This document shows, in pieces, positions 13,367 to 17,652 of a stretch of DNA of 64,000 bases; positions within the stretch are counted from its first letter, which is position 1, and every line of letters starts with the position of its first letter. Source of the stretch: Albidovulum litorale (GTDB lineage: Bacteria > Pseudomonadota > Alphaproteobacteria > Rhodobacterales > Rhodobacteraceae); NCBI RefSeq assembly GCF_025751495.1, contig NZ_JAOWKZ010000002.1:62001-126000 (forward strand), in the 5' to 3' direction. The notes beneath the pieces were generated by a model. That model did not search any database and was not told the origin of the DNA. It saw only the letters and a list, made by a program, of their open reading frames with translations. The position numbers were made by a program, and so were the translations under genes.

Positions 13367-14275
13367 TCAGGACATCCCGCCGCTGACCGGCTCTAGCGCC
13401 GACACCCTTTCCATCAGCCAGCTGCGAAACGCACGCGCCGGGCGACGCAGCGTGCCCGGATCGGGATAGACGAGGTGGTAATATTCCAGCCCCGGTACGG
13501 CGACGCCCGGCAGGCAGGGCACCAGTCCCTGCGCCCGCATGATCGGATCGCTCGCCGGCGCCCGGGCAAGCGCGATACCGGCGCCGTGCCCGGCCAGCGC
13601 CGCCGCCATCACCGTCGAATCGACCATCACCACCCGCGCGCCCGCCCCAAGGAGTTTCAGGCTCTCGAACACATGCGGCCAGCCGGCGCGGTGGGTCGCG
13701 ACCTCCAGCAAAGGATGCGCCAGAAGGTCGGCCGGCGTCTTGATCCGCGCCGCGATCTCCGGCGTCGCCACCGGGTAGAGCATCTCACCCATCAGCTGGT
13801 CATGGGCGCGGCCAAAGGCCGAGGGCGCGCCAAAGATGATCTTCAGGTCCGAAAAGGCATGGGTGAAGTCCTCGACCGCGTTGCCGGTGGTGATATGCAG
13901 CGCGATATCGGGATGACGCGCGGTGAAATCGGTAAAGAGCGGCGCGAGCACGCCCTGTGCGAAGATATGCACCGCCTGCACATAAAGCCGCTCCTCCCGC
14001 GCCCTGCCGAAAAGCCCCGCCGTCGAGGTTTCCAACGAGACAAGAGACATCTGCACCGAGGGCAGATAGGCCCGCCCCGCCTCGGTCAGCCGCACTGCAT
14101 GGGGCTGTCGGGTGAACAAAGCCATGCCGAGATGGCTCTCCAGCGCCTTGACCTGCTGGCTGACCGCCGGGGGTGACATGTTCAGCTCCGCCGCCGCGCG
14201 GGCGAAGCTTTCCGTCCGCGCCGCCGCCTCGAAAACGCGGAGCCAGTTGAGCGAGGGAATGCGGGTGCGGTCCAT
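13367..14275 (-). CDS. LysR family transcriptional regulator (GcvA-like)
   Basis: 302 residues: N-terminal winged helix (about 4-63, LNWLRVFEAAARTESFARAA, SPPAVSQQVKALE) and the LysR effector-binding domain. The N-terminal pattern is that of the GcvA subgroup. It is divergent from the PhyH/HD gene pair, and a perfect T-N11-A palindrome lies 6 bp upstream of its start, so it most likely controls itself and that pair. The effector is unknown. Confidence 0.93.
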   Translation of the reverse strand: MDRTRIPSLNWLRVFEAAARTESFARAAAELNMSPPAVSQQVKALESHLGMALFTRQPHAVRLTEAGRAYLPSVQMSLVSLETSTAGLFGRAREERLYVQAVHIFAQGVLAPLFTDFTARHPDIALHITTGNAVEDFTHAFSDLKIIFGAPSAFGRAHDQLMGEMLYPVATPEIAARIKTPADLLAHPLLEVATHRAGWPHVFESLKLLGAGARVVMVDSTVMAAALAGHGAGIALARAPASDPIMRAQGLVPCLPGVAVPGLEYYHLVYPDPGTLRRPARAFRSWLMERVSALEPVSGGMS

Positions 14276-14281
14276 GAACCG

Positions 14282-14302
14282 AGGATAAGCTCAGCTTATC
14301 CT
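14282..14302. promoter_or_regulatory. LysR-type operator (perfect palindrome)
   Basis: AGGATAAGCT, one central C, then AGCTTATCCT: a perfect 21-bp inverted repeat. Inside it ATAAGCTCAGCTTAT fits the T-N11-A LysR box exactly. It lies 6 bp before the LysR gene and about 80 bp before the divergent oxygenase gene, the usual position for autoregulation plus activation. Confidence 0.75.
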
Positions 14303-14380
14303 GACCGGCAAGAGATACCGTTCTGAACTTTGATGCTTCCGCATTAGCGTTTGCGCAACGCGACGGACAGGAGACCGGCA

Positions 14381-15262
14381 ATGTGTGTGCCCTTGATCGA
14401 CGGCCGCCTCTCTGAGGTGGAAAAGGCTCGATACTGGGAAGATGGCTACCTCTTCCCGATTCAGGCGATCCCGCCCGAAAAGGCCCGCGCCTGGCGGTCG
14501 GAACTGGAAGCTATCGAACATGACTGGCTCGACGCCGGCCTGCCGCTGCCCCTCAACACCTACAAGCGCGTCAACGCCAATTGCGTGCTGCCCTTGGCGC
14601 ACCGGATCGGTACCGACCCCGCGATTCTCGATATCGTCGAGGGCATCCTCGGCCCCGACCTGCTGATCTACGGCGTCGAGTTCTTCATCAAGGAGCCGCG
14701 TAGCAAACATAAGGTCTCCATGCATCAGGACCTGACCTATTGGGGGCTCGGCGCCATCGACGGTATGGTGACGATGTGGCTGGCGCTTTCGCCCGCCACC
14801 CGCGCCTCGGGCTGCATGGAATTCGTTCAGGGAAGCCACCTCAATCCGATCCTTCCGCACGAGGACACCTTCGCCGAGGACAATCTCCTCTCCCGCGGGC
14901 AGGAGGTTAAGGTCAATGTCGCGCCAGAGGACCGCGTGCCTATCGAACTGATGCCCGGCCAGATCAGCCTGCATCACGGGCTGACTATCCACGGTTCCGG
15001 CCCAAACACCACCGACGACCGCCGCATCGGCGCAGTGGTGCGCTATGTCACTCCCGAGATTGCGCAACTGGTCGGTGATAAGGATTATGCGATGCTGGCG
15101 CGCGGCGCCGACCGCGTCGGCAATTTCATTAACTTTGCGCCGCCAACGGCGAACTTCACCCCCGCGAGCCTTGCGCTTTACGAGGAAATCCGCTCCGCTC
15201 AGGCCAAGTTCCTGATGAAGGGCACCAGCAACACCAAGGGTCTGTACGCGGAGGCACGCTAA
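14381..15262 (+). CDS. PhyH-family Fe(II)/2-oxoglutarate dioxygenase
   Basis: 293 residues from the ATG at 14381, preceded by ACAGGAGA. The iron facial triad is visible: H115-x-D117 (SMHQDLTYW) and the distal H204 in HHGLTIHGSGPN, with arginines R214/R215 for 2-oxoglutarate. Family members hydroxylate an unactivated C-H bond. Its stop overlaps the start of an HD-domain gene (TAATG), a pairing known from PhnY (2-aminoethylphosphonate hydroxylase) and PhnZ. The substrate cannot be read from sequence; a phosphonate or a quaternary-amine analogue is a hypothesis. Confidence 0.9.
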   Translation: MCVPLIDGRLSEVEKARYWEDGYLFPIQAIPPEKARAWRSELEAIEHDWLDAGLPLPLNTYKRVNANCVLPLAHRIGTDPAILDIVEGILGPDLLIYGVEFFIKEPRSKHKVSMHQDLTYWGLGAIDGMVTMWLALSPATRASGCMEFVQGSHLNPILPHEDTFAEDNLLSRGQEVKVNVAPEDRVPIELMPGQISLHHGLTIHGSGPNTTDDRRIGAVVRYVTPEIAQLVGDKDYAMLARGADRVGNFINFAPPTANFTPASLALYEEIRSAQAKFLMKGTSNTKGLYAEAR

Positions 15263-15879
15263 TGGAAAAGGTCAGCTTCACCCAGATGAAGGACGGCACG
15301 AAGGAGGAATACGAGTTCCTCACCGCGCACGAGATCGACCACACCAAACACACTGCCGACCGGCTGCTAACGGCCCTTGTCGACCTCGACAAGTCGCTCT
15401 CGGGCTACCAGATCACGCGGCTCGGCCATTCGGTCCAGTCAGCGACACGGGCCTGGCGCGACGGAGCGGACATCGACTGGGTGGTCTCCGCCCTCCTCCA
15501 CGATATCGGCGACATCTACGCGCCCTACAATCACGACGAATACGCGGCGACGATCCTGAAACCCTTCGTGCGCGAGCAATGCACATGGTGCGTCCAGACC
15601 CACGGCGACTTCCAGATGCTCTATTACGGTCATCACCTTGAGGGCTTCGACCAGCACAAGCGCGAACGTCATCGCGGCAATCCCTATTTCGACGACTGTG
15701 CCGAGTTCTGCGAACGCTGGGATCAGGCGAGCTTCGACCCCGACTACGACGACCTGCCGATCGAGTTCTTCGCGCCCATGGTCCGCGAGGTCTTCGCCCG
15801 CACGCCCTATGACCCGCAGGTCATCCGTAAGGGCGAGAGGGTGCCGCTGACAGATGTGGATGTGGCAGCCAAAAGGTGA
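15262..15879 (+). CDS. HD-domain protein, candidate mixed-valent di-iron oxygenase (PhnZ-like)
   Basis: 205 residues. Potential metal ligands are H56, the HD pair H80-D81 (LLHDIGD), H91, H114 and D154. The 24-residue spacing from the first histidine to the HD pair is the one I recall for PhnZ; the tyrosine/glutamate lid residues of PhnZ are not obvious here. HD oxygenases of this type cleave a C-P or C-C bond of a hydroxylated substrate supplied by a partner Fe/2OG enzyme, which is encoded immediately upstream with overlapping stop and start. An ordinary phosphohydrolase role is the alternative. Confidence 0.8.
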   Translation: MEKVSFTQMKDGTKEEYEFLTAHEIDHTKHTADRLLTALVDLDKSLSGYQITRLGHSVQSATRAWRDGADIDWVVSALLHDIGDIYAPYNHDEYAATILKPFVREQCTWCVQTHGDFQMLYYGHHLEGFDQHKRERHRGNPYFDDCAEFCERWDQASFDPDYDDLPIEFFAPMVREVFARTPYDPQVIRKGERVPLTDVDVAAKR

Positions 15880-16571: not shown

Positions 16572-17546
16572 TCAGGCCGCAGGCCCGGAGTCTTCGGCGA
16601 TCAACCGGACCTCGGCGGGGCTGAGCCCGTCAGCCCCCAATACATGGGCCACGACCTCCCCGTCGATCAGGACCTGCATCGCCCCTTCCAGATCCGGGTC
16701 TGGTAGGACGGTCACCACCGGGGCGGGATGCGCGACGGGATCGTAATTCAGCACCAATTTATCTTCCGCCGGGTTGTAGTCGGCGATTACCGCAGGCCCA
16801 GCATCGCCGCTGAGCCAGTCCGAAAGTGAAAAGGTGTCCGCCCCACCCCCGCCCTCGACCCAGTCGTCGTGACCGGCGAAAATCGTGTCGTCGCCCCCGC
16901 CGCCATTGAGAAAGTCTCGGCCATCGGCATCGGGACCGGCACCACCGGAGACGCGGCCGTCCAGCATATCATTGCCGTCCCCGCCCATCAGCGTGTCCTG
17001 CCCCAGTCCGCCGACCAGCAGATCGTCACCGCGCGCGCCCTGAAGCGCATCATCGCCGTCGCCTCCATAAAGGCTGTCCTGCCCGCCTCCGCCGATCAGG
17101 CGATCGCCGCCCGCACCGCCGTCGAGGCGGTCATCGTCCTCATGGCCGGCCAGGTAGTCGTCCCCAGCGTGACCGTAGAGCTCATCCGCCCCGTCGCCAC
17201 CATGGAGGCTGTCATCGCCATCGCCACCGTCCAGCGTGTCATCTCCGCCCAGACCATGCAGGTCGTCATTCCCCGCATTACCATGGATCGCGTCGGTGCC
17301 GTCATAACCACCGATCTGGTCATCACCGCCACCACCGTGGATCTCGTCCGCGCTGTCCGTGCCGGAAATAACCTCGGCCAGCGGCGTGCCCTCAATGGTG
17401 TTTTCAGGCTGTTCCGCCTCGGGCGCGTCGATATCTCCCTCGGTCTCCGGGTCTGACGCATCCTCGTCCCCGGTTTTCAGAACACCGCTGAGTTCGACGG
17501 CGACGCCCGCCGCGAACAGCCCCAGCAACCCGGCCAGCATGAACAT
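16572..17546 (-). CDS. RTX-type calcium-binding repeat protein with N-terminal membrane anchor
   Basis: 324 residues from the ATG at 17546 (MFMLAGLLGLFAAG). A hydrophobic segment (about 3-20) and an acidic linker precede about 15 nonapeptide repeats of the GGxGxDxxx type (roughly residues 60-210), which fold as a calcium-binding beta roll. The C-terminal part (VIADYNPAEDKLVL...) resembles the end domain of RTX proteins. No enzyme domain and no type I secretion genes are seen nearby. An alternative start at 17540 would shorten it by two residues. Confidence 0.82.
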   Translation of the reverse strand: MFMLAGLLGLFAAGVAVELSGVLKTGDEDASDPETEGDIDAPEAEQPENTIEGTPLAEVISGTDSADEIHGGGGDDQIGGYDGTDAIHGNAGNDDLHGLGGDDTLDGGDGDDSLHGGDGADELYGHAGDDYLAGHEDDDRLDGGAGGDRLIGGGGQDSLYGGDGDDALQGARGDDLLVGGLGQDTLMGGDGNDMLDGRVSGGAGPDADGRDFLNGGGGDDTIFAGHDDWVEGGGGADTFSLSDWLSGDAGPAVIADYNPAEDKLVLNYDPVAHPAPVVTVLPDPDLEGAMQVLIDGEVVAHVLGADGLSPAEVRLIAEDSGPAA

Positions 17547-17652
17547 CCCGCACCCCCAGATCTTCGCGACCGGCAATCCCCATCGCCGGCATACCCCGCG
17601 ACCAGTCAAAGCCGGTCACGTTAACATGGTCACAATGGCGGGCGGGATAGAT

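Follow-up and report, generated by a model that had tools for sequence, protein, structure and literature searches.

A PhyH/HD-domain gene pair of Albidovulum litorale and a widespread family of putative diiron oxygenases that may act on hydroxylated trimethylammonium compounds

We studied a two-gene cassette in a 64,000-nucleotide stretch of the Albidovulum litorale genome (positions 62,001 to 126,000 of contig NZ_JAOWKZ010000002.1; hereafter the window), in which a gene for a PhyH-type Fe(II)/2-oxoglutarate (2OG) oxygenase is followed by a gene for an HD-domain protein, here called HD. Conserved residues and a predicted fold indicate that HD is most likely a mixed-valent diiron oxygenase of the HD-domain type supplied by a 2OG hydroxylase, and its family forms a real and widely distributed branch of HD-domain proteins, whose members are probably diiron oxygenases that can switch between hydroxylase partners. 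As to the general class of reaction, sequence and gene context suggest, with about even chances, that HD cleaves a C-C bond of a hydroxylated trimethylammonium compound in an O2-dependent manner. The locus is laid out as follows.

13367-14275, minus strand: open reading frame of a LysR-type regulator (HTH_1 83.9 bits, LysR_substrate 75.8 bits)
14276-14380, no strand: intergenic stretch between the divergent genes, presumed from the sequence to hold the promoter/operator
14381-15262, plus strand: PhyH-type Fe(II)/2-oxoglutarate oxygenase of 293 amino acids (Pfam PF05721), presumed step 1 hydroxylase
15262-15879, plus strand: HD-domain protein of 205 amino acids, presumed from ligands and fold to be the step 2 mixed-valent diiron oxygenase

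The initial annotation of this DNA had described the three reading frames, with PhyH and HD divergent from LysR, and all are present. So is the one-base overlap TAATG that it had noted, the PhyH stop TAA (15260-15262) and the HD start ATG (15262-15264) having one base in common. For PhyH, an alternative TTG start is possible at 14351.

The six potential metal ligands of HD (H56, H80, D81, H91, H114 and D154) were found to be identical in 175 of 175 sequences, a set that includes the window and near-duplicates and from which six of 181 matches, short fragments or TmpB-like, were left out. An AlphaFold model of HD computed with 49 sequences (pLDDT 95.1, pTM 0.90) was compared with the PDB using Foldseek, and all 10 matches with E<=0.001 were PhnZ (7 chains) or TmpB (3 chains). 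Among the best 50 of 110 matches, the next were a glycyl-tRNA synthetase (E 0.072) and a tRNA-processing enzyme (E 0.097), with MIOX (2ibn, E 0.99) and the phosphatase GppA (E>=1.3) further down. Because the six ligands are conserved and the significant fold matches are PhnZ and TmpB only, we infer a mixed-valent diiron oxygenase; PMC8177086 assigns one and the same ligand motif to MIOX, PhnZ and TmpB and describes the mixed-valent mechanism and the YxxE lid. The architecture proposed initially, a Fe/2OG hydroxylase with an HD diiron oxygenase, is thus supported by ligands, fold and the PhyH domain match, and HD does not fall with phosphohydrolases lacking a second metal site, an outcome that the initial annotation had named as contrary to its proposal.

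Within this fold class, HD stands apart from the characterised enzymes. On the NCBIfam models it reached 29.1 bits for Phn-HD (cut-off 214.6), 27.4 for TmpB (300) and 24.4 for hydroxymethylphosphonate dioxygenase (300), and it is a member of none of them. With the first ligand His as anchor of the alignment, the residues Y24 and E27 of PhnZ, which form the lid (PMC8177086), align with L46 and Y49, and the YxxE lid is absent, as had been noted initially. Four residues past the fourth ligand His, where TmpB has a Lys, 174 of the 175 HD sequences have Gln. The position after HDxG is Asp in 163 of the 175 and His in PhnZ and TmpB; MIOX has Lys there. We take the aligned PhnZ His and TmpB Lys positions to be phosphonate-binding.

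Compared with known systems, the pair resembles TmpA/TmpB in being a tandem of hydroxylase and HD diiron oxygenase in a quaternary-amine setting, with a TmpA-superfamily partner in some relatives, and differs in its TmpB score, the missing lid, Gln for Lys, and PhyH in place of TmpA. With PhnY/PhnZ it shares the closest fold (PhnZ, E 2.8e-6, among the best 50 of 110), the six-ligand motif and the hydroxylase-then-oxygenase logic, whereas identity over the fold alignment is 21-23%, the Phn-HD score is far under its cut-off and the lid residues are replaced. The likeness to MIOX consists of a weak Pfam MIOX match in 27 of the 35 HD relatives of set A1 (E<=0.1; Pfam HD matches 35 of 35) and of the NCBI name 'inositol oxygenase family protein' on a close plasmid relative; on the other side, the window protein does not belong to Pfam MIOX (PF05153; 20.1 bits, gathering cut-off 25), its fold match is weak and it has Asp after HDxG. 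Its Pfam HD score of 20.7 bits is just under the cut-off of 22. Filing HD under PhnZ, TmpB or MIOX is ruled out by the curated cut-offs, and no characterised member of the HD branch was found.

The initial annotation had proposed oxidative cleavage of a small organophosphonate, in which PhyH would hydroxylate next to the phosphorus and HD would free phosphate, as in PhnY/PhnZ and TmpA/TmpB. The four known versions of the PhnY/PhnZ pathway counted in PMC10574752 are all for phosphonates. PhnZ and TmpB are the closest folds; in addition, the HD gene of locus L143 adjoins a true TmpA, and a hydroxylase adjacent to HD at L437 scores over the TmpA cut-off, which keeps a phosphonate in play. Against it stand scores of 24-29 bits versus cut-offs of 214.6-300, the absent lid and the nearly invariant Gln at the TmpB Lys position. 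Furthermore, the same genome carries, outside the window (G000:C9:200800-202442, L289), its own TmpA (600.1 bits, cut-off 400) beside a TmpB (344.2 bits, cut-off 300), and the labelled neighbours of the family point to the metabolism of carnitine, gamma-butyrobetaine, choline and betaine. No phosphonate transporters were noticed by eye in the neighbour lists, for which no model search aimed at them was made, and this too counts against phosphonates. Phosphonate cleavage is unlikely on this evidence and the phosphonate label probably wrong for the HD family. The initial annotation was right to suspect that the substrate differs and that the branch is new.

The surroundings of HD were surveyed at 177 loci (the window, L060-L179 and L235-L290), near-duplicates such as L063/L101 and L066/L290 included, with a simple gene caller that missed the partners of L143 and L146, found later by a six-frame search; clusters were named by eye except for PhyH, BKACE, carnitine dehydrogenase and TmpA/BBOX, and the neighbours valS, purF and gshA were taken as chromosomal context. 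Operon neighbours were PhyH (22 loci), BKACE-like proteins (16) and carnitine dehydrogenase (15), many of the loci with the latter two being from Mesorhizobium, as well as a TmpA/BBOX-like oxygenase (8), a Rieske-like oxygenase (5) and an IPNS-like 2OG oxygenase (3). Counted on unique sequences, a 2OG oxygenase from any of four groups lies within two genes of HD in 35/175, and BKACE or carnitine dehydrogenase in 18/175. When the seven neighbour labels, of which four are hydroxylases, are placed on an HD tree of the labelled rows (a quick search without bootstrap, as are all trees here), no fewer than 14 changes are required, and therefore the genomic setting of HD has changed often.

These data also bear on whether HD could be a non-oxygenase dinuclear hydrolase, with a CoA thioester or phosphate ester from the same pathways as its substrate. 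HD-domain hydrolases can bind two irons too (PMC8177086), and more than half of the HD calls (105 of 177) are without any neighbour label. With a 2OG oxygenase as a recurrent partner, and with fold matches beyond PhnZ and TmpB beginning at E 0.072 and those to GppA at E 1.3, we consider a hydrolase very unlikely.

The presumed partner of HD in the window matches Pfam PF05721 with 98.9 bits (cut-off 22) and is a member of the PhyH family. Its Fe ligands H115, D117 and H204, the intact HxD...H motif of the initial annotation, are unvaried in the 15 rows of set A3, as is R215, which we take to be the 2OG-binding Arg. The best fold match of its predicted structure (pLDDT 85.6) is ThoJ (6zyl, E 7.4e-24), followed by SyrB2, a likeness that does not discriminate between the candidate substrates. 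The four NCBIfam matches of this protein (E<=1) include neither a PhnY nor a TmpA model. PhyH lies directly upstream of HD in 21 of the 177 loci, and on a tree of 57 PhyH rows (26 adjacent to HD, 31 not) the HD-adjacent proteins were clustered, with 3 changes against a shuffled mean of 19.1. Among 101 relatives, HD is present in 14/14 genomes with a PhyH at E<1e-110 versus 26/87 of the others. Based on this pattern of linkage, clustering and co-occurrence, HD appears to be the central enzyme, for which PhyH is an optional feeder. The prediction that relatives keep the two genes together thus holds in part: the linkage recurs, and PhyH is absent from a sizeable share of the HD-positive genomes of the genus. 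At L009 (genome G017), a PhyH fragment adjoins a 93% identical HD gene, which suggests loss of PhyH and retention of HD in that genome.

Carnitine and choline genes are a further setting of HD. The order BKACE-HD-carnitine dehydrogenase followed by three more genes, which we take to be acyl-CoA dehydrogenase-(CoA ligase)-enoyl-CoA hydratase, is found in Mesorhizobium, Hoeflea, Pseudotabrizicola and others. The carnitine dehydrogenase of L066 scores 770.4 bits, over the cut-off of 592, and that of L089 343.8 bits, under a cut-off of 414; for the BKACE-like genes of both loci, the nearest model is 3-keto-5-aminohexanoate cleavage enzyme, under its cut-off. G221 has HD beside BKACE and carnitine dehydrogenase (L089) and, in addition, a hydroxylase (L310) of the Asp type described below. 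The genome of the window itself encodes a carnitine dehydrogenase (778 bits, cut-off 592), the presence of which we did not use as support, as a match is found in 22/22 genomes of the genus (in pieces in G005) and does not discriminate.

A P. aeruginosa plasmid carries, in this order, genes for LysR, a TauD-type dioxygenase, HD, a choline-binding protein, a choline dehydrogenase and an aldehyde dehydrogenase, and on a Rhizobium plasmid HD is followed by an opposite-strand regulator-like gene and then by the same three kinds of gene. The choline-binding proteins and choline dehydrogenases of both plasmids exceed their NCBIfam cut-offs (TIGR03414, PRK02106); the choline dehydrogenases fall short of the more stringent betA model, and the aldehyde dehydrogenases are below the cut-off of every betaine-aldehyde model. 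These plasmids, together with the ThoJ- and SyrB2-like fold of PhyH, are consistent with some other hydroxylated amine or amino acid as substrate, such as 2-hydroxy-beta-alanine betaine, which would give glycine betaine and bicarbonate in the carboxylate counterpart of the TmpA/TmpB reaction, or a homocholine-type compound. As such a substrate would leave the carnitine operons unexplained, we rate it unlikely.

We favour the trimethylammonium class, a label that is more likely right than wrong for the family, because some relatives of HD sit with carnitine, choline and TmpA/BBOX-like genes. In the proposed scheme, PhyH would hydroxylate a trimethylammonium substrate, and HD, using O2 and no outside reductant, would cleave the bond beside the new hydroxyl to leave a carboxylate. 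The stoichiometry would be R-CH(OH)-R' + O2 -> R-COOH + R'-OH, which fits the chemistry of PhnZ and MIOX. The favoured candidate is 3-hydroxy-N6-trimethyllysine, the C2-C3 cleavage of which would yield gamma-butyrobetaine and a carbinolamine that would go on to glyoxylate and ammonia, and the gamma-butyrobetaine would feed the carnitine-to-betaine route. This substrate is preferred because of Asp residues in the hydroxylase and in the HD site, and because of a link to trimethyllysine dioxygenase; the exact conversion of 3-hydroxytrimethyllysine to gamma-butyrobetaine is possible, at chances well below even. We tentatively suggest that the bacteria may possess an oxygenolytic shortcut in which one diiron enzyme does the work of two in the carnitine pathway of eukaryotes, an aldolase and an aldehyde dehydrogenase, the hydroxylase being PhyH, TmpA-like or a trimethyllysine dioxygenase according to lineage. 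The likeness to that pathway lies in the proposed product, the Asp-type hydroxylase partners and the carnitine-operon neighbours; the difference is that eukaryotes rely for this step on aldolase plus dehydrogenase, not on an oxygenase (PMC7764450). According to PMC8085414, carnitine biosynthesis had not been observed in prokaryotes.

The Asp in question occupies the position of BBOX N191, a residue that contacts the carboxylate of gamma-butyrobetaine, and from the TMLH motif we take this position to correspond to TMLH D231. It was found in 24 of 142 unique rows of the TmpA/BBOX superfamily, comprising 7 with a trimethyllysine-dioxygenase-type motif and 17 others ('D1', among them L325, a fragment resembling the first type). 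Fifteen rows lie within 1.5 kb of an HD gene, and 10 of these have Asp, compared with 14 of the 127 rows away from HD; the plasmid partner P0003 has Asp too. In human TMLH, D231 and N334 are needed for trimethyllysine, and D231 helps its binding (PMC7764450). The label 'TmpA-type' (51 of 142 rows) is defined partly by Asn and gives no independent test of the residue; the four proteins over the TmpA model include three with Asn and one with Asp (L437). Fragmentary BBOX-superfamily matches, two of G131 and three of G321, were left out of the residue reading. Five trimethyllysine-type proteins were scanned, of which four score over the cut-off of 268.3 (295.3-336.1) and one under it (248.2, L321). 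The four, L293, L307, L312 and L315, are alphaproteobacterial and come from genomes that carry the HD family. In Halomonas (L165:6858-11302), a TmpA-like gene and HD stand next to a true TmpA (565 bits) and a TmpB-like HD protein (263.5 bits, cut-off 300). At L313, an Asp-type hydroxylase is divergent from a BKACE-like gene, with downstream genes that we take to be thioesterase-like and CdhR/GlxA-like.

Next we consider co-occurrence across genomes, in tests that ignore kinship and with a phylum sample that overlaps the class sample. In the class sample, HD was found in 82/289 genomes, the BBOX superfamily in 47/289 and both in 36 (p=4e-14); in the phylum sample, the counts were 40/299, 23/299 and 17 (p=3e-12). 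Within the class, genomes with an Asp-type hydroxylase carry HD in 15/17 cases versus 67/272 (p=2e-7), and in 10/12 once the linked ones are removed (p=5e-5). Genomes with a trimethyllysine-dioxygenase type carry it in 6/7 versus 76/282 (p=0.0025), these seven having been set by motif, with four over the cut-off, L321 under it, L317 unscanned and L325 a fragment. The overlaps 36/47, 17/23, 15/17, 21/30 and 6/7 were counted by eye, 21/30 being the share of HD-positive genomes among those with only other BBOX-superfamily proteins (p=0.28 against the Asp type). An assignment of the whole family to a trimethyllysine pathway from co-occurrence alone was rejected, because these other proteins co-occur with HD nearly as often.

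Several observations weigh against the favoured explanation. The high HD frequency with other BBOX-superfamily proteins and the disregard of kinship are two of them, and the large number of loci without a neighbour label (105/177) is a third. Five of the 15 HD-adjacent hydroxylases have Asn (L078, L143, L168, L255 and the TmpA of L165), including the true TmpA of L143 (581 bits), which lies beside HD on a 3378-base contig where TmpB was not seen. For each scanned HD partner of the Asp type, the best score is to TmpA (320-427 bits), not to trimethyllysine dioxygenase, and L437, both Asp-type and HD-adjacent, is over the TmpA cut-off (427 versus 400). PhyH is often absent: in the window's genus, 16 genomes are HD-positive and 7 of them have none at E<=1e-25, although two of the seven are less than 85% complete and G017 keeps its fragment next to HD. 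In G013 (2 contigs), whose HD is 91% identical, PhyH and BBOX-superfamily matches are both absent. Finally, of 12 genomes with the carnitine operon (G020, G622-G632), one has PhyH and seven have TmpA/BBOX-superfamily matches, and none of the 10 matches from these genomes has the Asp. The hydroxylase-poor carnitine-operon genomes, G013 and L143 leave room for carnitine, or even a phosphonate.

Under the carnitine alternative, the hydroxylase would make carnitine from gamma-butyrobetaine and HD with O2 would split C2-C3 to glycine betaine and glycolate. It was retained because carnitine is already hydroxylated, so that carnitine operons need no hydroxylase, in line with the 12 genomes, which mostly lack PhyH and show no hydroxylase of the Asp type; likewise, several genera have HD flanked by a BKACE-like gene on one side and carnitine dehydrogenase on the other, and hydroxylase partners come from the TmpA/BBOX superfamily. 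However, operons such as L066 already encode a carnitine dehydrogenase over the cut-off and a BKACE-like protein, which together constitute the CoA-dependent carnitine-to-betaine route, and Asp replaces the BBOX Asn in 10 of the 15 HD-adjacent hydroxylases. Carnitine cleavage is an unlikely alternative to the trimethyllysine-derived substrate that we prefer.

The HD family extends well beyond the window, as it was found in 82 of the 289 genomes sampled from the class, 13 loci are named Pelagibacteraceae or Pelagibacter, and Roseovarius strains are among the closest named relatives of the cassette. Plasmid relatives are annotated as 'HD domain-containing protein', 'phosphohydrolase' or 'inositol oxygenase family protein'. 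In PMC8177086 (2020), three HD-domain oxygenases are named (MIOX, PhnZ and TmpB) and more are expected. In one literature library, the titles and abstract openings among the matches listed link no HD-domain protein to trimethyllysine or gamma-butyrobetaine, and no paper there combined 'trimethyllysine', 'butyrobetaine', 'HD domain' and 'bacteria'. If the substrate is indeed a trimethylammonium compound, HD would add an O2-dependent C-C cleavage to carnitine and betaine turnover, and would caution against counting such HD genes as phosphonate genes.

Other settings of HD were also seen. In SAR11 loci (L151, L157, L160 and other Pelagibacteraceae), a purF-like gene followed by HD and then by glutathione-type genes is a recurrent order, the upstream gene being presumably purF-like and the downstream ones presumably glutamate-cysteine ligase-like and then glutathione synthetase-like. 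Distant HD relatives (about 42-47%; L460, L457, L243, L252 and L257) lie near class II aldolase/adducin genes and may have different substrates.

In the window, the best NCBIfam model for the LysR regulator is GcvA (206.5 bits, under the cut-off of 288). The cassette stands alone, because its flanks read as a long open reading frame that we take to be DNA topoisomerase I on the left and a short one, presumably ribosomal protein S15, on the right. Near the cassette, at 16572-17609 on the minus strand, the window encodes a protein rich in GGxGxD-type repeats that is RTX-like by eye.

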